Notes under the pieces: generated by a model
Seen by the model: only the letters and a program-made list of their open reading frames with translations
The model's database searches: none
What the model was told of the DNA's origin: nothing
Shown: piece after piece, positions 1,813 through 16,024 of the stretch
Position numbering within the stretch: position 1 is the stretch's first letter
Layout of the letters: each line of letters opens with the position of its first letter
Position numbers and translations under genes: made by a program
IMG/VR virus record: IMGVR_UViG_3300046009_012758
Location: 1-31,567 of that record
Length of the DNA stretch: 31,567 nt
Strand: one strand, 5' to 3'
Source of the DNA: a virus

Positions 1813-1850
1813 AAAAAAGAAATTTTTCGTTCCAACAGGCGAAAAACCGC

Positions 1851-1878
1851 TTGACGACTGCGGAAAACCTGATAATTT
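1851..1878 (+). promoter_or_regulatory. Early promoter TTGACG-16-TAATTT, leaderless type
   Basis: The -35 is TTGACG (1851-1856), the spacer is 16 bases ending in TGA (extended -10), and the -10 is TAATTT (1873-1878). GAAAAA lies a few bases upstream. Only eight bases separate the -10 from ATG 1887, so the transcript should begin at or next to the start codon. Confidence 0.65.
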
Positions 1879-1886
1879 GATCCCGC

Positions 1887-2147
1887 ATGACGATCAAAAC
1901 CTATTTGGCGCACCTTGAGCAGGTCAAACAAGATCTTTTGGCACTTGACTTGCCAGAAAATACTAGGCTAGTTAATCCTTCTGACATGGGATTTATGTCT
2001 GATTTTGGAGATTGCAGTATGGAATTTATTCCAAAGGAAGTATTTGTTTCAAATGAACGCTGCTATGCTTATGAATACTTGTGCGACAAGCAATTGACAG
2101 AAAAAGAAAATGTTGTTGTTGTTCGTAATATTTGTTTTATTCGCTAA
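1887..2147 (+). CDS. Hypothetical protein, 86 aa, predicted leaderless
   Basis: ATG 1887 lies eight bases after the -10 element TAATTT, leaving no room for a ribosome-binding site. The product starts with a helical segment (about residues 2-24) and ends with a beta-like hydrophobic segment (ENVVVVRNICFIR). There are three cysteines in the C-terminal half but no clear metal-binding spacing. I do not recognise the family. Confidence 0.7.
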   Translation: MTIKTYLAHLEQVKQDLLALDLPENTRLVNPSDMGFMSDFGDCSMEFIPKEVFVSNERCYAYEYLCDKQLTEKENVVVVRNICFIR

Positions 2148-2159
2148 AAATATTTGACC

Positions 2160-2360
2160 ATGAAAACCTTCATCGAAGAAAAAACGGAACTGCTTAACAA
2201 GATTTCAGCCTGTGATGGTGATACAGCTAAACTGGCTCATGCTCTTTCGCAAGCTCTTGACAGGTTGCAAGCGGTGATTTCACAAGCTGAAGCTCAATTC
2301 AAGGTTGGTGATCGCCATGCCACCTTCAATAAAAATTTCATCGAAAATCTGAAAAAATAG
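2160..2360 (+). CDS. Small helical protein, 66 aa
   Basis: I chose ATG 2160 because the bases before it, TTTGACCATG, match those before ATG 2395. An in-frame TTG at 2154 would add only two residues. The product is largely helical, with heptad-like spacing over residues 5-45 (LLNKISA, then LAHALSQALDRLQAVIS), suggesting a short coiled coil. No recognised family. It ends one base before the next promoter. Confidence 0.65.
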   Translation: MKTFIEEKTELLNKISACDGDTAKLAHALSQALDRLQAVISQAEAQFKVGDRHATFNKNFIENLKK

Positions 2361-2388
2361 TTGACCGGCTCGAAAGACCTGATACCTT
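2361..2388 (+). promoter_or_regulatory. Early promoter TTGACC-16-TACCTT, leaderless type
   Basis: TTGACC (2361-2366) abuts the stop codon of the previous gene. The 16-base spacer ends in TGA and the -10 is TACCTT (2383-2388). GAAAAAA precedes the -35. ATG 2395 is six bases after the -10, so predicted +1 falls on the start codon. Confidence 0.7.
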
Positions 2389-2394
2389 TTGACC

Positions 2395-2616
2395 ATGCAA
2401 AACGAAATTGACGCTATTGAGTTCCTTCGCTGCGACCCTGTTGATGGAGTGGGTGTCCGTGTGTCCGAAAAAATCGCAAGAAAATGGTTGCTTGAAAACA
2501 AAGGGATTATTTCAGGTGGAACTGTTTTTTTCTTGAAAATCAAGAATCTTGGTGCGGGTGTTTATAAGGTTAATAAAGCTCCGTTGACTGTCCGAGAGAC
2601 TTTAATGATTAAGTGA
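2395..2616 (+). CDS. Hypothetical protein, 73 aa, predicted leaderless
   Basis: ATG 2395 is six bases after the -10 TACCTT, and the local sequence TTTTGACCATG resembles that of the 2160 gene. The product combines an N-terminal acidic helix (MQNEIDAIEFLR), a Val-Gly-rich strand region and a basic C-terminal half. There is no Cys or His cluster and no membrane segment. Function is unknown. It forms a one-gene transcription unit between promoters at 2361 and 2626. Confidence 0.7.
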   Translation: MQNEIDAIEFLRCDPVDGVGVRVSEKIARKWLLENKGIISGGTVFFLKIKNLGAGVYKVNKAPLTVRETLMIK

Positions 2617-2625
2617 AAAAATCTG

Positions 2626-2654
2626 TTGACCGCCCACAAAAAATCAAATCTCTT
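2626..2654 (+). promoter_or_regulatory. Early promoter, TTGACC with weak -10
   Basis: TTGACC (2626-2631) is followed by the same GCCCACAAAAA spacer as the promoter at 2917, and GAAAAAA lies upstream. The -10 is poor (TCTCTT or ATCTCT at 16-17 bases spacing), unlike other members. Assignment rests on similarity to its relatives. ATG 2663 lies within about ten bases. Confidence 0.5.
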
Positions 2655-2662
2655 TTGAAATT

Positions 2663-2896
2663 ATGAAATACATTATTGTTGAGGATCGTGGAACTGGTCT
2701 TGAACTTGGAATTATCTTTTCGGAATATTTGAATCATCGTGATGTTGCTGGAGATCAAAAAGTTACGGGTGCTGGATTTTGCTGTTTTGTAGATGGAAAA
2801 TGTCTTGCATGGGGAGAAAGTATTGGATTAGGAATCAAGGCTCGTCCGCAAGATGAAAAAATTCTAAATAAAAGTCTGAAACTGGCAAAATGCTAG
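2663..2896 (+). CDS. Hypothetical protein, 77 aa
   Basis: The start ATG 2663 is placed by the upstream promoter-like sequence. The product begins MKYIIVEDRGTGLELGIIF and contains two phenylalanine/cysteine-rich beta strands (GAGFCCFVDGKCLAWGES, about residues 38-55). That suggests a small beta-sheet protein. From memory, similar short proteins with SxSxGL-type ends occur in phages without a known role. The last residues (KSLKLAKC) are basic. Confidence 0.7.
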   Translation: MKYIIVEDRGTGLELGIIFSEYLNHRDVAGDQKVTGAGFCCFVDGKCLAWGESIGLGIKARPQDEKILNKSLKLAKC

Positions 2897-2916
2897 ATTT
2901 TTTCTGAAAAAAGCTG

Positions 2917-2944
2917 TTGACCGCCCACAAAAATCTGATAACCT
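2917..2944 (+). promoter_or_regulatory. Early promoter TTGACC-16-TAACCT without a gene behind it
   Basis: TTGACC (2917-2922), a 16-base spacer ending in TGA, and TAACCT (2939-2944) make a good member of the repeated promoter family, with GAAAAAA upstream. No credible reading frame follows. The predicted transcript begins around 2951 and enters the two 37-base repeats at 2953-3026. Confidence 0.65.
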
Positions 2945-2952
2945 TTTTTTAG

Positions 2953-3026
2953 TTGATCGTTAGACTATGCAAAAGTTGAAAATCAACTATTGATCGCTAG
3001 ACTCTAAAAGAGTTGAAAATCAATCA
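2953..3026 (+). repeat. Two tandem 37-base imperfect repeats
   Basis: Copies at 2953-2989 and 2990-3026 each begin TTGATCG, continue TAGACT, and contain GTTGAAAATCAA. Within each copy GTTGA and TCAA(C) can pair, so each unit can fold as a hairpin in RNA. They lie immediately behind an orphan promoter. They could be a non-coding transcript, iteron-like protein-binding sites, or both. Confidence 0.7.
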
Positions 3027-3151
3027 GCTAACCAAGAGAGTGCCAATCAAAAAATGCCGAGCATGGGGCGGTTGGTGATGCGGCTTGGGAAATGGGATCT
3101 GGACCTGCTGAACAAAAAATGAAAACCAGAGCAATTTTTAGAAAAAGCTCG

Positions 3152-3179
3152 CTGACAAGTCAGAGAAATCTGATAAGAT
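3152..3179 (+). promoter_or_regulatory. Promoter CTGACA-16-TAAGAT for ncRNA/tRNA
   Basis: CTGACA (3152-3157), a 16-base spacer ending in TGA and TAAGAT (3174-3179) match the family. The upstream sequence TTTTAGAAAAAG is also shared with the promoter at 3392. The predicted start site, seven bases after the -10, is 3186, the first base of the stem that closes the structured RNA described next. Confidence 0.65.
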
Positions 3180-3185
3180 ATTTTC

Positions 3186-3276
3186 AGTTGATAAAAGCAC
3201 GAAGCGGAAAGTGTGTGGGAGAACGTAGCCGCTAACTTGAGTAGTAAAATACGCATAAGTCAACCACTATCAACTG
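3186..3276 (+). ncRNA. Predicted structured non-coding RNA upstream of the tRNA
   Basis: The interval begins at the predicted start site of the promoter at 3152-3179. Its ends can form a perfect nine-base helix: CAGTTGATA (3185-3193) with TATCAACTG (3268-3276). Inside, AGCGG (3203-3207) can pair with CCGCT (3229-3233), and GCAC (3197-3200) with GTGT (3211-3214), though not both as simple nested stems. No coding potential is evident. It is about the size of a long-arm tRNA but I could not fit a cloverleaf. The tRNA follows after seven bases, so both may come from one precursor. Confidence 0.45.
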
Positions 3277-3283
3277 CACAATT

Positions 3284-3359
3284 TCTGGGATAGTGTATCT
3301 CTTCAGCACGGCAGTATGTTATACTGTTAGACAGGGTATGAAATCCCGTCCCAGAGCCA
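3284..3359 (+). tRNA. tRNA-Asn (GTT anticodon), atypical D and T loops
   Basis: A 76-base cloverleaf can be drawn. The acceptor stem is a perfect 7 bp (TCTGGGA 3284-3290 with TCCCAGA 3349-3355), followed by G73 and encoded CCA (3357-3359). T8 and A9 are present. The D stem is GTGT/GCAC with loop ATCTCTTCA. The anticodon stem is GCAGT/ACTGT with loop ATGTTAT, giving anticodon GTT (3318-3320), T33 and A37. The variable loop has four bases. The T stem CAGGG/TCCCG has an A-C mismatch and loop TATGAAA. The D loop lacks GG and the T loop lacks the usual TTC, so the normal elbow contacts are lost together. Acceptor start U1-A72 and G73 agree with bacterial tRNA-Asn. Confidence 0.75.
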
Positions 3360-3391
3360 ATTTTGTTAGTCAAGATTTTAGAAAAAGTTCG

Positions 3392-3420
3392 TTGACCGGC
3401 GCGAAAAAATCAGCTAACTT
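3392..3420 (+). promoter_or_regulatory. Early promoter TTGACC-17-TAACTT, leaderless type
   Basis: TTGACC (3392-3397), 17 bases, TAACTT (3415-3420). TTTTAGAAAAAG upstream is shared with the promoter at 3152. ATG 3427 follows after six bases (TTCACC), so +1 is predicted at the start codon. Confidence 0.7.
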
Positions 3421-3426
3421 TTCACC

Positions 3427-3588
3427 ATGAAAAACGACAACGACTTCCGAAAAGAGTACGCGACCAAGTTCAGGAAGTTTCAAGCTGGCGAAATCAGCGC
3501 GAATGACTGGCGCGAATTTTGCAACAAATATTTTGACAAGCTGGTCAGCGACAACAAGGATGTTTTTGTGCGGCTGAAAAATCGCTGA
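3427..3588 (+). CDS. Small charged hypothetical protein, 53 aa, leaderless
   Basis: ATG 3427 lies six bases after a -10 element. The frame gives 53 residues beginning MKNDNDFRKEY and ending VRLKNR, rich in Lys, Arg, Asp and Glu and probably all helical. A central segment reads FQAGEISANDWREFCNKYF. The precise promoter-to-start spacing, the same as at 2361-2395, supports its being real despite its size. Family unknown. Confidence 0.6.
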   Translation: MKNDNDFRKEYATKFRKFQAGEISANDWREFCNKYFDKLVSDNKDVFVRLKNR

Positions 3589-3597
3589 AAAAACCCT

Positions 3598-3625
3598 TTG
3601 ACAGGCGCGAAAAATCTGATAGGAT
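3598..3625 (+). promoter_or_regulatory. Early promoter TTGACA-16-TAGGAT, leaderless type
   Basis: TTGACA (3598-3603), a 16-base spacer GGCGCGAAAAATCTGA (extended -10 TGA), TAGGAT (3620-3625). GAAAAAA lies upstream. ATG 3635 is nine bases beyond the -10. It is the only promoter seen for the 3635-5166 operon. Confidence 0.7.
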
Positions 3626-3634
3626 TTTCCCAAG

Positions 3635-3811
3635 ATGAAGCTGAAAGGCGCGAACAACGACGAGGTTGAAGTCGAGGATTCTTGGCAAGAGGAGTGTCCC
3701 CAGTGCGGCGACTTAAACGTCGAATGTTACTACATCCCAAGTTGGGCGGCAACTCGTTGTTATGGTTGTTTGGTAAATGAAGCAATTAAATTTAATTACG
3801 TTGTTGAATAA
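3635..3811 (+). CDS. Small zinc-ribbon-like protein, 58 aa, leaderless
   Basis: This frame begins nine bases after the -10 TAGGAT. It encodes an acidic N-terminus, a CPQC knuckle (residues 21-24), a further Cys31, and a second CxxC pair (Cys42, Cys45). That spacing fits a four-cysteine zinc ribbon, so nucleic-acid or protein binding is likely, inferred from the fold only. Its stop joins the next start as TAATATG, and it heads a six-gene operon ending at the terminator at 5172. Confidence 0.65.
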   Translation: MKLKGANNDEVEVEDSWQEECPQCGDLNVECYYIPSWAATRCYGCLVNEAIKFNYVVE

Positions 3812-3812
3812 T

Positions 3813-3965
3813 ATGAAAGTTTATCTTGTTTATGGTTTAGATTTAGACGATTTTTGTGAAGAGCCTTTTGTTAAGAAAGTTTTCGCCAATAAAGACAAAG
3901 CAGATAAATACGCAAGAGAATCTTCTTTAGATAGAGCGTTTGTTGAAGAAATGGAATTAGAATAA
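3813..3965 (+). CDS. Small hypothetical protein, paralogue of the 1074-1259 gene
   Basis: ATG 3813 sits one base after the preceding stop (TAATATG). The 50-aa product MKVYLVYGLDLDDF... keeps the N-terminal YLVYG strand, the EPFVKKVFA segment and the C-terminal VEEMELE of the 1074 product. It lacks that protein's extra C-terminal residues. A longer reading from 3777 would overlap the previous gene and break the alignment with the paralogue. The two copies occupy similar positions within separate early operons. Confidence 0.75.
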   Translation: MKVYLVYGLDLDDFCEEPFVKKVFANKDKADKYARESSLDRAFVEEMELE

Positions 3966-3967
3966 AT

Positions 3968-4201
3968 ATGAGTATGTCTGGAAGCATTGTCCTCTCTGTG
4001 TTAGATAAAGCTGTTAAATACAGCATGACACCAGATGATGTGGCGGAACTGTATAATAATATTGTTGACATTCTTGAATGGGACAACGATTGTCCTTATA
4101 CAAGAGAAGATGCAATTAACGCTGTTGACTATTTAATTAATGACAAATACAGCAGCATTGATAAACAAGCAGGTGCTGATTGGTTAAATAAGTATAAATA
4201 A
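3968..4201 (+). CDS. Hypothetical protein, 77 aa
   Basis: The ATG lies two bases after the previous stop; a second in-frame ATG (residue 3) is also possible. The product is helical and acidic, with DDVAELYNNIVDILEWDND in the middle and a basic end (ADWLNKYK). The alternation of helices with TPDDVAELY and TREDAINAVDYL suggests a small helical bundle. No family recognised. The stop and next start form TAATATG. Confidence 0.7.
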   Translation: MSMSGSIVLSVLDKAVKYSMTPDDVAELYNNIVDILEWDNDCPYTREDAINAVDYLINDKYSSIDKQAGADWLNKYK

Positions 4202-4202
4202 T

Positions 4203-4484
4203 ATGGACACAAAATACTTTCGACTTACAGATAATTTTGTAGATGATTCTTTTAATCTTGCGTTTTTCGCCAGAAGCATAGAGAATGATCTTCACAGGCT
4301 TTCTATGTCTTTTTACACAACTGGCAATGAAAAAATGTCTGATGAACTTTCTGAATTAGCCACAAAAGCAAGTCTAATTCACGACAATATTATCAAAATT
4401 TGCCAGAATAGAATATCTTCTGACTTCAAAAAGTCACAAGAAATGCAAGCAGAAGTTATCAATAAAATTCTTACTCAAAAATAA
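4203..4484 (+). CDS. Hypothetical helical protein, 93 aa
   Basis: It is coupled to its neighbours on both sides by TAATATG junctions without Shine-Dalgarno sequences. After a polar N-terminus (MDTKYFRLTDNFVDDSFN) the protein is largely helical and polar, rich in Lys, Glu and Ser, with no cysteine cluster and no membrane segment. Function unknown. It belongs to the 3635-5166 operon. Confidence 0.7.
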   Translation: MDTKYFRLTDNFVDDSFNLAFFARSIENDLHRLSMSFYTTGNEKMSDELSELATKASLIHDNIIKICQNRISSDFKKSQEMQAEVINKILTQK

Positions 4485-4485
4485 T

Positions 4486-4857
4486 ATGGAAATTAAATTC
4501 AAAGACGGCAATTTGCAGATTGACTTGCACAGTCTTCTTGATAATATCAGGGAAGAAGATTTGAGTGAATTTCTGGAGAGCATTTCCTGCAATGATAAGG
4601 TAATTAAACACGTTACCGATCAGATCCTTGACAAGTGGACCGAAAATGTCTACTCTGGAAGCTCAAACATCACTGCCTCTGCCGAGGTTTACCTTGGCCT
4701 TGACAAGGCATGGCGAGAGGTGGCAAAACGCTCAGGCGAGGTCGCAAAGCGCGAAATTGAGAGGCTAGAGGAAGCTCTCAGACGGCGCAATCAGGAGTAT
4801 TTTGATCTAGTTAATGAGTATTCAAGAAAGAATAGAGAGAATAGATATCAGGATTAA
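4486..4857 (+). CDS. Hypothetical protein with C-terminal coiled coil, 123 aa
   Basis: The start follows TAATATG. The N-terminal half is acidic (IREEDLSEFLESISCNDK). From about residue 75 to the end the sequence is a long charged amphipathic helix (AWREVAKRSGEVAKREIERL and onward, EEALRRRNQEYFDL) typical of a coiled coil, so oligomerisation is likely. Its codon use is more GC-rich than that of its neighbours in the middle portion. Family not recognised. Confidence 0.7.
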   Translation: MEIKFKDGNLQIDLHSLLDNIREEDLSEFLESISCNDKVIKHVTDQILDKWTENVYSGSSNITASAEVYLGLDKAWREVAKRSGEVAKREIERLEEALRRRNQEYFDLVNEYSRKNRENRYQD

Positions 4858-4860
4858 TTT

Positions 4861-5166
4861 ATGATGCATCCATATCATAAGTATGTTGTTTTATTTGATA
4901 GAGATTTAGACTTTATGGTCTCAGAATCTTTAGAAGGTAATGTGCTTGATTCAGAAAATTTTGTAAAAAGAATTGAGTTTGATGTAGCTCAGTTAAAGAA
5001 AAAGAACAAATTGTCTGAAGTTGAATTGAGAGAAAATGACTTGAGGATAGCCAAAAAAATACTATCTGAAAGTAAGCATAAGTTAGAACTCTGGTATTCC
5101 AAGCAAGTTACTCGTATTACTGAAGAGCAAAAAGAGGCTTTGTTTGATAACAAAACAGCATCTTAA
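4861..5166 (+). CDS. Hypothetical helical protein, 101 aa
   Basis: The start is three bases after the previous stop; ATG ATG gives two adjacent candidate starts. The protein is strongly charged and helical, with Lys/Glu-rich segments over residues 38-90. It has an N-terminal strand (HKYVVLFDRDLDFMV). It is the last gene of the 3635 operon and is followed directly by a candidate terminator. No family recognised. Confidence 0.7.
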   Translation: MMHPYHKYVVLFDRDLDFMVSESLEGNVLDSENFVKRIEFDVAQLKKKNKLSEVELRENDLRIAKKILSESKHKLELWYSKQVTRITEEQKEALFDNKTAS

Positions 5167-6275: not shown

Positions 6276-6303
6276 AAATAAATAAAATAAATTGAAAAAA
6301 CTC

Positions 6304-6331
6304 TTGTAGGTCTCTTGGGGGCTGCTAGATT
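6304..6331 (+). promoter_or_regulatory. Early promoter TTGTAG-16-TAGATT with extended -10, leaderless type
   Basis: TTGTAG (6304-6309), 16 bases ending TGC, TAGATT (6326-6331), then eight bases to ATG 6340. It has the same geometry as the TTGACC promoters but a weaker -35. Confidence 0.6.
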
Positions 6332-6339
6332 AGCTCCCG

Positions 6340-7474: not shown

Positions 7475-7514
7475 AAACGATACCTAAAAATTAAATAAAA
7501 TATTTGTTGCAAAA

Positions 7515-7529
7515 GGTCAGTCCCTGACC
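7515..7529 (+). promoter_or_regulatory. Palindromic operator candidate GGTCAG-TCC-CTGACC
   Basis: A perfect six-base inverted repeat with a three-base centre lies 16 bases upstream of ATG 7546, behind TTGCAA (7507-7512). It could be a repressor site or a small hairpin controlling the GP88-like gene. No good -10 hexamer accompanies it. Confidence 0.5.
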
Positions 7530-7545
7530 CAAAGTGTGTCCCGTT

Positions 7546-13146: not shown

Positions 13147-13175
13147 TTGACAAAATGCCCCGAATGATCAACAAT
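13147..13175 (+). promoter_or_regulatory. Promoter TTGACA-17-AACAAT, leaderless type
   Basis: Perfect TTGACA (13147-13152), 17 bases, AACAAT (13170-13175), then eight bases to ATG 13184. The same -10-to-ATG distance as at 1887 and 6340. Confidence 0.6.
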
Positions 13176-13183
13176 AGTACGCT

Positions 13184-13882
13184 ATGAATAAATTACTAAA
13201 ACTAGCATTCTTAATTGCAACACTAACTACAGCGGCCTTTGCCCAAAATGCCCCAGTTCGCGCTTCTTTTGAAGCCGGGTATGCCTCAACGTACCTTGTG
13301 AACGGCTTGTCTCGAACCAAGGCAACTCCTTTTGCAGGAGTTGGTCTAGGCTCAACATACTATGGGGTTGATGTAGGCGTGTCTGGTACAATTCTCCCAG
13401 TTAGCGAGAATCTCGATGAGAGCCACTGGGCTTTCAATGTAGGGAAGGGTTTTCAACTCTTTGAGGGCGTAACATTGCGAACAGATGGCGCAGTAATTCG
13501 CCACCAAGCTGGCGACCCAAATATCCCAAACTCCACAGAAGCAAACATTAAGGTTGCTCTACAGAATAATTTCTTTACTCCCTATGCCAAGGCAGTATAT
13601 GACATTAATCTAGAACAATATGGATATGGTGTTGGACTAGAGCGCCCAACCAGCGTATTTGGTTGGTTTACTGTTACTCCTGCTTTGGAGTACCTTAAGC
13701 TAAGTGACTCTGCTAATGCTATTGCAAAGATTGGTGTGAGCCGCACCTTCTTTGAGCATCTAACAGCTTTTGCGGAGGTTACTTACATCAAGAATGACTT
13801 TGATGTTTCTGCATTTAACTTTGCTCGCAAGGAGCTAGACGGTGAAGTAGTTGGCGCTGGCGGTTTGCGCTGGACCTTCTAA
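13184..13882 (+). CDS. Phage-encoded outer-membrane beta-barrel protein, 232 aa
   Basis: A clear signal peptide (MNKLLKLAFLIATLTTAAFA, predicted cleavage after residue 20) is followed by alternating amphipathic beta-strands (ASFEAGYASTYLVNGL, STYYGVDVGVSGTI, AFNVGKGFQLF and similar). The C-terminus is GGLRWTF. A terminal Phe in such a strand is the usual signal for the BAM machinery. The start resembles TorF-like porins. Expected location is the host outer membrane. Phage genes of this kind (Lom, Cor and relatives) alter the host surface or block superinfection, which is inference here. It has its own promoter and terminator. Confidence 0.7.
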   Translation: MNKLLKLAFLIATLTTAAFAQNAPVRASFEAGYASTYLVNGLSRTKATPFAGVGLGSTYYGVDVGVSGTILPVSENLDESHWAFNVGKGFQLFEGVTLRTDGAVIRHQAGDPNIPNSTEANIKVALQNNFFTPYAKAVYDINLEQYGYGVGLERPTSVFGWFTVTPALEYLKLSDSANAIAKIGVSRTFFEHLTAFAEVTYIKNDFDVSAFNFARKELDGEVVGAGGLRWTF

Positions 13883-13906: not shown

Positions 13907-13938
13907 AATCCTCAAGTTGAAAAACTTGGGGATTTTTT
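13907..13938 (+). terminator. Strong intrinsic terminator after the outer-membrane protein gene
   Basis: AATCCTCAAGTT (13907-13918), loop GAAA, AACTTGGGGATT (13923-13934), running into T's to 13938. Twelve pairs with one G-U. Confidence 0.85.
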
Positions 13939-13960
13939 GTTGTTATATATATAATAGGTA

Positions 13961-14961: not shown

Positions 14962-15357
14962 ATGAGAATTTATTGTCAAAAATGCGGGACCGGAATAGAT
15001 TATGCATATGAAAAACCAAATTTCTGCACAAAGTGTGGCTTTAATTTTTCACCAGTCAAATCTGTTGTTGCAAAAACTATTCCTTCCAGACCGAATACTA
15101 TTACACATTCTGAAGAGGAAACAGAAGATATAGAATCTTTGGACAATATTAAGAATATGTCTAAGTTAGATGTTGAAGTTTCTGCTTCGCCAGATCGCAA
15201 GACTAAATTTAAAGACATAATTGGTACAAGGTCGGATCGTCCAATGGAAGACCAGCAAACTCAAGCTGGACCTATAGACAAAAAAGAGTTCTTAGAGTCC
15301 TTCAGGAAAGAAGCTGGATTCTATCCGTCCAGAAACCAAGATAATGAAGAAGAATAA
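14962..15357 (+). CDS. Zinc-ribbon protein with disordered tail, 131 aa
   Basis: Two CxxC knuckles (Cys5, Cys8 and Cys22, Cys25) form a classical zinc ribbon at the N-terminus. Residues from about 30 are polar, acidic and probably disordered. A helix near the C-terminus (DKKEFLESFRKEAGF) may be a docking element. It overlaps the sigma-like gene by 14 bases, so the two are probably co-translated. A role as a transcription co-factor or head-assembly partner would fit the position but is inference. Confidence 0.75.
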   Translation: MRIYCQKCGTGIDYAYEKPNFCTKCGFNFSPVKSVVAKTIPSRPNTITHSEEETEDIESLDNIKNMSKLDVEVSASPDRKTKFKDIIGTRSDRPMEDQQTQAGPIDKKEFLESFRKEAGFYPSRNQDNEEE

Positions 15358-16024
15358 ATTAAAATTTGAGAAAAATTTAGATTTAATTAATGCGGAAATC
15401 CTGAAAAGGAAAAATAAGTGGACCTTATCCGCCCTTAACTGGATCGATTTTGAAGATGTTGCCCAGATTGTTAGGTTCCATTTGTATAAAAAATGGGATC
15501 TCTACGATCCTGCAAAACCGATCTTACCTTGGATAAATAGAATCATATCCAATCAAATAAAAAACATAATTAGAAACAATTATGGCAATTATGCTAGGCC
15601 GTGTTTAAAATGCGCCGCATCTTTAGGAGATTCTGGATGCAGAATATATGGAGAGCAAAACTCAATATGCCCCATGTACGAAAATTGGAAAAATACAAAA
15701 AAGAATGCTTACGATATAAAAATGGCAGTGTCAATTGAAGATCATCCAGCAGAAATAAATAACAGAAGTCAAGAATCCTTAGACATACAAAAAGCAACAG
15801 CAAATTTAAACATAGTAATGCAAAAGGTTCTTAAGCCAATGGAGTGGCAAGTGTATGATCTATTATATATTCAATTGAAAAACGAAGAGCAAGTTTGTAA
15901 AATACTAAAGCTGAAATTTGATAAGAGCTCTAAAACAGGATACAACAAACAGCTTAGAAATATTCAAAAATCTATAATAAAAAAAGCAAAACTTGTCATT
16001 AGAAATGGAGAAATAGATCTATGA
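15344..16024 (+). CDS. Sigma-70-family-like RNA polymerase sigma factor with Cys insertion, 226 aa
   Basis: Residues about 34-80 (DFEDVAQIVRFHLYKKWDLY, then PAKPILPWINRIISNQIKN) match sigma region 2, which binds the polymerase clamp and the -10 element. After it comes a four-cysteine segment (Cys87, Cys90, Cys99, Cys109, pattern CxxC-x8-C-x9-C), likely a zinc-binding insertion. The C-terminal part (about 150-215) has helices that could form a reduced region 4. By position before the virion genes it is the candidate late-gene sigma, as gp55 is in T4. It overlaps genes on both sides (the stop is ATGA). Confidence 0.75.
   Translation: MKKNKLKFEKNLDLINAEILKRKNKWTLSALNWIDFEDVAQIVRFHLYKKWDLYDPAKPILPWINRIISNQIKNIIRNNYGNYARPCLKCAASLGDSGCRIYGEQNSICPMYENWKNTKKNAYDIKMAVSIEDHPAEINNRSQESLDIQKATANLNIVMQKVLKPMEWQVYDLLYIQLKNEEQVCKILKLKFDKSSKTGYNKQLRNIQKSIIKKAKLVIRNGEIDL

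Follow-up and report, generated by a model that had tools for sequence, protein, structure and literature searches.

Repeated sigma-70-type promoters adjoining AUG codons in a phage lineage, and the leaderless, movable promoter-ORF modules that they predict

The 31,567-nt stretch of viral DNA analysed here (hereafter the window, or W) carries seven copies of a promoter cassette, with -35 elements starting at 1851, 2361, 2626, 2917, 3152, 3392 and 3598; these and all other features of the window described below lie on the plus strand. Copy 1 (1840..1886) consists of an A-tract, TTGACG (1851-1856), a 16-nt spacer ending in CCTGA, and TAATTT (1873-1878), which leaves 8 nt before ATG 1887, the first possible start codon of an 86-aa ORF (1887..2147); the ortholog of this ORF in the relative G3 is preceded by TTGACG-16-TAACGT-8-ATG. 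In copy 2 (2350..2394) the -35 element TTGACC (2361-2366) stands immediately 3' of the stop codon of the preceding ORF, and a 16-nt spacer, again ending in CCTGA, leads to TACCTT (2383-2388), 6 nt before ATG 2395 of a 73-aa ORF (2395..2616). Copy 3 (2615..2662) joins TTGACC (2626-2631) through a 17-nt spacer to a degenerate -10 element, TCTCTT (2649-2654), 8 nt before ATG 2663 of a 77-aa ORF (2663..2896) with a weak match to PHROG 3988, of unknown function. Copy 6 (3381..3426) has TTGACC (3392-3397), a 17-nt spacer and TAACTT (3415-3420), 6 nt before ATG 3427 of a 53-aa ORF (3427..3588), and copy 7, within 3588..3819, has TTGACA (3598-3603), a 16-nt spacer and TAGGAT (3620-3625), 9 nt before ATG 3635 of a 58-aa ORF (3635-3811). 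The ATGs at 1887, 2395 and 3427 stand in the geometry of leaderless genes.

Copies 4 and 5 are good promoters with non-coding sequence and no coding ATG downstream. Copy 4 (2906..2951; TTGACC 2917-2922, spacer 16 nt, TAACCT 2939-2944) precedes a non-coding stretch (2951..3130) that is probably an RNA transcribed from it, and that holds a tandem 37-nt hairpin repeat (2953-3023) whose folding was no better than that of shuffles. Copy 5 (3138..3185; CTGACA 3152-3157, a 16-nt spacer ending in TCTGA, TAAGAT 3174-3179) is followed by a second non-coding stretch (3186..3365), which opens with AGTTGAT, as does the putative copy-4 RNA. Positions 3284-3362 fold into a tRNA-like cloverleaf with GUU at the anticodon place and an encoded CCA, though not better than shuffles, and searches of the non-coding units with ARAGORN and against Rfam gave no match above threshold, this cloverleaf included. 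Since these two copies lack a coding ATG, the cassette appears to be primarily a promoter and only secondarily a start-codon device.

Two further promoters of the same kind lie outside this cluster. The promoter of ORF 6340 (6290..6339; TTGTAG 6304-6309, spacer 16 nt, TAGATT 6326-6331) ends 8 nt before ATG 6340, a distance kept in the W, G1 and G3 orthologs; G2 lacks this ORF, and there the same promoter adjoins the next gene, again at 8 nt. The promoter of a porin-like gene (13147..13183; TTGACA, spacer 17 nt, AACAAT 13170-13175) ends 8 nt before ATG 13184 of a 232-aa outer-membrane-like protein (13184..13882), which has a signal-peptide-like N-terminus and gave no Pfam match; the conservation of the N-terminus supports the start codon, and the end of the -10 element lies exactly 8 nt before the ATG in 20/20 distinct contigs with diverged spacers. 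The GP88 gene has a weaker version (7507..7545; TTGCAA 7507-7512, spacer 17 nt, weak -10 CAAAGT, 10 nt to ATG 7546). GP88 promoters also adjoin the ATG in G3, G012 and G013 and, with weaker -35 elements, in L271 and L273. The spacer of the GP88 promoter in the window holds an inverted repeat, GGTCAG-tcc-CTGACC; a palindromic spacer is absent from the early cassettes of the window, and we rejected it as a general feature.

A sequence-only reading of this DNA had listed promoters at 1851, 2361, 3392, 3598, 6304 and 13147, and all six are present at these positions; the geometry it described at 6304 and 13147 is moreover conserved in relatives. Its count of four cassette copies fell short of the total of seven, having missed 2626, 2917 and 3152. 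The distance of 6-9 nt to an ATG that it gave applies to the five copies that precede small ORFs (1851, 2361, 2626, 3392 and 3598) and to 6304 and 13147, but not to 2917 and 3152. In five of six ORFs (1887, 3427, 3635, 6340 and 13184) the ATG is the first ATG, GTG or TTG that follows a stop codon, whereas 2395 has an in-frame TTG 6 nt upstream, at 2389.

The lineage is widespread, with 304 terminase relatives in IMG/VR, and G017, G018 and G3 carry further promoters of the cassette type. Most informative is G012, a distant relative of 182 kb whose terminase is 40% identical to that of the window. Most of its genes in leaderless geometry lie at 76-151 kb, away from the terminase at 168 kb, and the larger ones match DNA repair, ligase and kinase families.

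Is this geometry above chance? In a leave-one-out matrix test the seven copies scored 20-35 bits, while the best score per dinucleotide-shuffled window averaged 12.8 with a maximum of 20.1 (100 shuffles). The pattern TTGAC..TAnnnT..N6-9..ATG occurs 6 times in the window against a shuffle mean of 0.35 and maximum of 3 (200 shuffles); the corresponding TTGAC..ATG matches number 57 in G012 (shuffle mean 2.65, maximum 6), 10 in G017 (0.42) and 8 in G018 (0.36). G3 shows no genome-wide excess of strict TTGAC sites (4 vs 2.2 in shuffles), its signal appearing with a looser -35 only, and the MAG carrying a related phage contig, G016, shows a modest excess (22 vs 15 control matches), G016 being possibly mis-binned. 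A looser sigma-70-like consensus scan of the window found 44 sites against 33 expected, which is weak evidence alone; the signal is carried by the fixed distance to the ATG. When the A-tract-bearing TTG..TAnnnT sites of the window and of three relatives are taken together, 17 lie 5-10 nt before an ATG-ORF and none at 11-20 nt. Of the 109 TTGA[CT]-N17-TAnnnT sites in G012, 47 have an ATG at exactly 6 nt and 6 at 7 nt, with at most 4 at any single distance of 9 nt or more; such a promoter stands 6-8 nt before 53 of its 311 called genes, and no gene has one at 1-5 or 9-13 nt. The check that had been proposed, the distance of cassette matches to the ATG, thus gives non-random distances in the window and in relatives. 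A loose cassette pattern searched across IMG/VR gave 120 matches, most of them due to chance in AT-rich phages whose genes have ordinary leaders, and we drew no evidence from it. Likewise TATATAATA, conserved before the PhoH gene and rare elsewhere, is not claimed as a general late-promoter motif.

By sequence criteria (-35 TTGAC(A), a 16-18-nt spacer, -10 TAnnnT) the cassettes qualify as sigma-70-type promoters, the exceptions to consensus in the window being 2626 and 13147 in the -10 and 6304 in the -35 element. When 30 promoters chosen for TTG and TAnnnT are pooled, the -35 element has TTG in 30/30, A in 23 and C in 20, and the spacer is 16 nt in 20 and 17 nt in 10. Most relatives have in common an extended -10 (TGn) and an AT-rich flank 5' of the -35 element; each is a known contact of the sigma-70 holoenzyme. 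The likeness among spacers had been taken to hint at a regulator or at recent duplication. A phage or host regulator that coordinates the early genes by binding GCGAAAAATCTGA in the spacer is very unlikely: the sequence recurs in several window copies and once each in G3, G017 and G018, but most promoters of this class in G017, G018 and G012 lack it, the TGn common to spacers is the sigma-70 extended -10, and a pattern scan of IMG/VR for GCGAAAAATCTGA found three contigs only, all relatives, as expected of recent copies. The GCGAAAAA part of the spacer is similarly confined to a few near-identical copies, whereas the spacers of relatives vary freely. A dedicated regulator is not needed.

Our preferred reading, to which we give a probability of about 0.8, is that host-type promoters, often with an extended -10, are fused to AUGs and would yield leaderless mRNAs as movable promoter-ORF modules. 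Host RNA polymerase would use the AT-rich flank, TTGAC, the 16-17-nt spacer often ending in TGn, and TAnnnT, and the start codon sits where transcription is expected to begin, so that the first gene of a unit would be on an mRNA with a leader of 0-4 nt. The geometry predicts 5' ends at the AUG or within about 4 nt of it, which agrees with the earlier suggestion that transcription begins at the start codon. In the discriminators of the 30 pooled promoters C makes up 41% and A 14%, which would leave the A of the ATG as the favoured start. The host ribosome would then initiate at the 5'-terminal AUG, and later genes of an operon could be reached via re-initiation at short stop/start junctions such as TAATATG, so that a Shine-Dalgarno sequence would be unnecessary; none was found upstream of the cassette genes. 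Upstream of genes, GGAG, GAGG and AGGA stay near background in G3 and occur only rarely in W and G012; G013, which is more distant, shows a clear enrichment of them. That diverged relatives have kept the geometry, and that one of them uses it pervasively, supports the leaderless prediction; against it stand the poor -10 at 2626, the weak -35 TTGTAG at 6304 and the weak GP88 -10 CAAAGT. Transcripts might instead start upstream, by read-through or from hidden promoters, with long leaders translated without Shine-Dalgarno sites, the geometry being a by-product of compact intergenic space. Intergenic gaps are indeed short and Shine-Dalgarno sites are lacking in these phages in any case, but compactness explains neither the 47/109 sites in G012 at exactly 6 nt nor the fixed 8 nt across 20 diverged porin promoters, and we consider this account highly improbable. 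We infer the early timing of the cassette genes from gene content.

Because promoter and start site fit into about 45 bp, each promoter-ORF pair is self-contained; copies of such units have arisen within the accessory region of the window, and phages have exchanged them. The one clear case of exchange is the 232-bp unit at 3588..3819 (copy 7 and the 58-aa ORF). It is shared at 95% identity with G018, the terminase of which is only 41% identical to that of the window, and the similarity breaks off abruptly at the cassette on one side and at the following start codon on the other. Copy 4 matches over 47 bp (89% identity) a copy in G018 with a lysozyme-like ORF downstream, and matches that cover the cassette alone (34-47 bp) lead into different downstream sequences in G017 and G018. 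The recent duplication or transfer that the sequence-only reading had offered as the other explanation of the shared spacers is thereby supported. One could go further and regard the cassette mainly as a recombination joint for the exchange of small genes, with promoter activity and leaderless translation secondary, as cassettes stand next to small ORFs of unrelated kinds and next to non-coding units alike, and both kinds of match point that way. This is unlikely, for most promoters of G017, G018, G012 and the porin set have almost no common spacer sequence and yet keep the -35, the -10 and the ATG distance, and a role in recombination would not by itself maintain these. Transfer is an addition to the leaderless reading and not an alternative to it.

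Several known systems resemble this arrangement. In bacteria, leaderless genes are recognised by a TANNNT lying about 12 bp before the start codon; such genes are described from bacteria and archaea, including Actinobacteria and Deinococcus-Thermus (PMC3160421). The cassette genes have the same promoter-to-AUG geometry, with the -10 ending about 6-10 nt before the start codon, no Shine-Dalgarno sequence and the start codon at the predicted 5' end (PMC3160421); they differ in being a phage trait with a full -35, tight spacing and near-identical repeated cassettes. Among phages, lambda cI is a leaderless mRNA whose promoter likewise adjoins the start codon, but it is a single gene (PMC3160421, PMC9031893), whereas here the number reaches about 50 within a single genome. 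The arrangement had been called uncommon; phage transcripts are "often leaderless" according to a phage transcriptome paper (PMC5312081), so this is right only in part; in the open-licence literature we found no report of dozens of phage genes driven by leaderless promoters. The promoter-early stem-loop cassettes (PeSLs) of T4-type phages, proposed to mediate module shuffling, are likewise described as repeated early-promoter cassettes between small accessory ORFs (PMC4503421), and as in that model a cassette lies at the edge of an exchanged unit in one clear case (3588-3819 with G018). Compared by that same description, the present cassette differs in having its promoter fused to the AUG and no stem-loop terminator; a terminator-like scan found none within the cassettes, the nearest being 2882-2896, just upstream of copy 4, and a terminator or hairpin role of the cassette was rejected. 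The start-associated sequence (SAS) of Cluster K mycobacteriophages, GGGATAGGAGCCC, is a short repeat placed directly before the start codons of numerous unrelated genes, with potential to pair with 16S rRNA and a proposed role in translation (PMC3203893). The position is similar, but the present cassette is a promoter, and no GGGATAGGAGCCC-like repeat with anti-SD pairing was found in it.

As a tentative proposal, to which we give somewhat less than even odds, this would be a lineage with Shine-Dalgarno-free expression that carries dozens of early genes as mobile promoter-AUG modules, each a few hundred bp long and transcribed and translated at whatever site it lands. Accessory genes (anti-host, counter-defence) could then be exchanged at the cassette, and the phage might be favoured in translation if initiation factors or ribosomes of the host change in the course of infection. 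The AUG-at-+1 layout appears to be standard for about 50 genes of at least one member and travels on units that pass from phage to phage; it offers a natural set for asking how 70S ribosomes initiate on 5'-terminal AUGs. It also bears on whether phages prefer leaderless mRNAs while altering host translation and on how transferred accessory genes remain expressed. In phages of this kind, gene callers that depend on ribosome-binding sites may place start codons wrongly.

The host search by nucleotide or major capsid protein gave no useful phage relatives, and the sole match in a bacterial genome is a phage contig inside an unresolved MAG. Matches to GP88 come from diverse alphaproteobacterial and other phages. 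The phages studied are uncultured and come from lakes.

The window is a 31.6-kb piece of an uncultured virus recorded in IMG/VR. Seven copies of one promoter cassette are found between its positions 1840 and 3634, both by reading the sequence and by scoring it with a repeat-derived matrix. Each is composed of an A-tract, TTGAC, a spacer of 16–17 nt mostly ending in CTGA, and TAnnnT, and the copies score 20–35 bits with a leave-one-out matrix, for which the best score in 100 dinucleotide-shuffled windows averages 12.8 and reaches 20.1 at maximum. The four cassettes listed in the sequence-only reading are real, but three others had been overlooked, with −35 elements at 2626 (weak −10), 2917 and 3152. 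Five of the seven end 6–9 nt ahead of the ATG of a short ORF, and the remaining two (2917 and 3152) lead into non-coding sequence. The 1840–3800 block is missing or reduced in the relatives G1, G2, and G3.

Five lines of sequence evidence argue that the distance between promoter and ATG is meaningful, and the short distance proposed earlier is borne out by non-random spacing in the window, G1–G3, contigs carrying a porin-like gene, and the relatives G017, G018, and G012. In the window and G1–G3, the three relatives with a homologous region, 17 sites with an A-tract and TTG..TAnnnT stand 5–10 nt before an ATG-ORF and none at 11–20 nt, with a flat distribution on the reverse strand, this looser −35 and A-tract rule having been picked after the window copies were seen. 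Strict TTGAC sites in G3 alone are not in excess over shuffles. A cleaner test is provided by the distant relative G012 (182 kb; terminase 40% and GP88, the gene at window 7546, 55% identical to those of the window), because the pattern used there requires neither A-tract nor ATG. Among its 109 TTGA[CT]-N17-TAnnnT sites, 47 lie exactly 6 nt before an ATG-ORF and six at 7 nt, with at most four at any single distance of 9 nt or more; viewed by gene, 53 of 311 possess such a promoter at 6–8 nt and none at 1–5 or 9–13 nt. Genes in the relatives were called by a scripted simple ORF rule. For the porin-like gene at 13184, whose start codon is supported by its conserved N-terminus, the −10 is located exactly 8 nt before the ATG in 20 distinct contigs; these promoters have TTGA(C/T) and a 16–17-nt spacer, and the more diverged contigs share little spacer sequence. 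The promoters of ORF 6340 differ in sequence among the window, G1, and G3 and are all 8 nt from the ATG, and in G2, which lacks this ORF, the promoter stands 8 nt ahead of the next gene. Finally, two relatives were found via the cassette itself: G017 (terminase 64% identical to that of the window), with eight further promoters at 4–9 nt from an ATG, and G018 (41%), with seven or eight.

Since transcription normally starts some 7 nt downstream of the −10 hexamer, the AUG would be at, or at most about 4 nt from, the predicted transcript end. Leaderless genes are frequent in Actinobacteria and Deinococcus-Thermus, and the accepted sign of them is a TANNNT lying about 12 bp ahead of the start codon (PMC3160421). 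The view that such a set is uncommon in a phage holds only in part: a search of open-licence papers turned up no account of promoters at one fixed distance from the AUG in tens of phage genes, but phage transcripts have been termed “often leaderless” (PMC5312081).

In the regions ahead of genes, the motifs GGAG, GAGG, and AGGA stay close to background in G3 and are seldom seen in the window and G012 (AGGA at 7 of 47 genes in the former and 16 of 311 in the latter), while the more distant phage G013, taken as control, is clearly enriched (GGAG at 49 of 274 genes vs. 9). Adjoining genes are often linked by short stop/start junctions, of which TAATATG is the commonest in the window and G3. This scarcity of SD motifs and the junctions fit a model, both steps of which we infer, where the first gene of a unit would be translated by leaderless initiation and the later genes by re-initiation. 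Gene content suggests an early timing for the leaderless genes; the larger ones in G012, most of which are sited away from the terminase, have matches to the families of RNA ligase, RuvB-like proteins, pyrimidine-dimer glycosylase, and dNMP kinase.

Two explanations had been offered for the similarity among spacers, a regulator or recent duplication. In 30 pooled promoters from six related phages, which were chosen for having the geometry and thus inform on promoter sequence and not on distance, the common parts are TTGAC, TAnnnT, and an AT-rich flank 5′ of the −35 (52% A); the discriminators contain 41% C and 14% A. TGn, the extended −10 of sigma-70, precedes the −10 in 14 of the 30. The GCGAAAAA stretch is restricted to a few near-identical cassette copies and occurs in only three IMG/VR contigs, all relatives. 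Because of this limited occurrence, and since the commonly shared TGn belongs to sigma-70 recognition, a dedicated regulator site in the spacer is unlikely, and recent copying of the cassette is likely.

Units larger than the cassette also move between phages. Window 3588–3819, comprising a cassette, a 58-aa ORF and the following ATAATATGAAAG, is 95% identical to G018 over 232 bp, and the rest of the compared region is mostly without detectable nucleotide match. The match begins within the cassette A-tract and ends just past the ATG of the next gene. Shorter matches cover a cassette only: 34 bp in G017, ahead of a different ORF, and 47 bp between cassette 2917 and G018, there ahead of a lysozyme-like ORF. 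These sharp edges and cassette-only matches indicate that the cassette marks the borders of exchanged units. The promoter-early stem-loop (PeSL) cassettes of T4-type phages, covered in PMC4503421, are also proposed to border exchanged units, but the window cassette joins the promoter straight to the start codon.

The non-coding stretches behind cassettes 2917 and 3152 both have predicted beginnings near AGTTGAT. Immediately 3′ of the former, at 2953–3023, is a tandem 37-nt hairpin repeat (TTGATCGYTAGACT..AGTTGAAAATCAA), probably a non-coding RNA. At 3284–3362 a tRNA-like cloverleaf is observed, with acceptor TCTGGGA/TCCCAGA, GUU at the anticodon place and an encoded CCA; neither ARAGORN nor Rfam calls it, and it may represent a decayed tRNA-Asn for which cassette 3152 is the promoter. 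Folding energies of both stretches are indistinguishable from those of shuffles.

The porin-like protein (13184–13882), conserved in about 20 relatives, has a signal-peptide-like N-terminus and no match in a Pfam search, and is unusual cargo for a phage. Likewise conserved in about 20 relatives is the arrangement at 13907–13960, where a terminator precedes TATATAAT(A), which ends only a few nt ahead of the ATG of the PhoH gene and looks like a late-type promoter that would be nearly leaderless too. A sigma-70-like protein at 15344–16024, upstream of the terminase, is a candidate late-gene sigma factor with a counterpart at the same place in a related phage contig (L263). It weakly matches a Rhodopirellula/Verrucomicrobium family, and Verrucomicrobiota include SD-scarce genomes (PMC10783764); together with SD scarcity in the phage, this is only a hint of a PVC host. 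The MAG holding L263, AWTP1-29, has 22 TTGAC-TAnnnT-N5-9-ATG matches vs. 15 for reversed-pattern controls, and is possibly a host using leaderless genes. Several leaderless promoters of G013 (L343–L352, 99–108 kb, minus strand) contain an inverted repeat in the −35/−10 spacer, as do the GP88 promoters of the window (7513–7529) and G3, the symmetry being kept while the letters vary between promoters.
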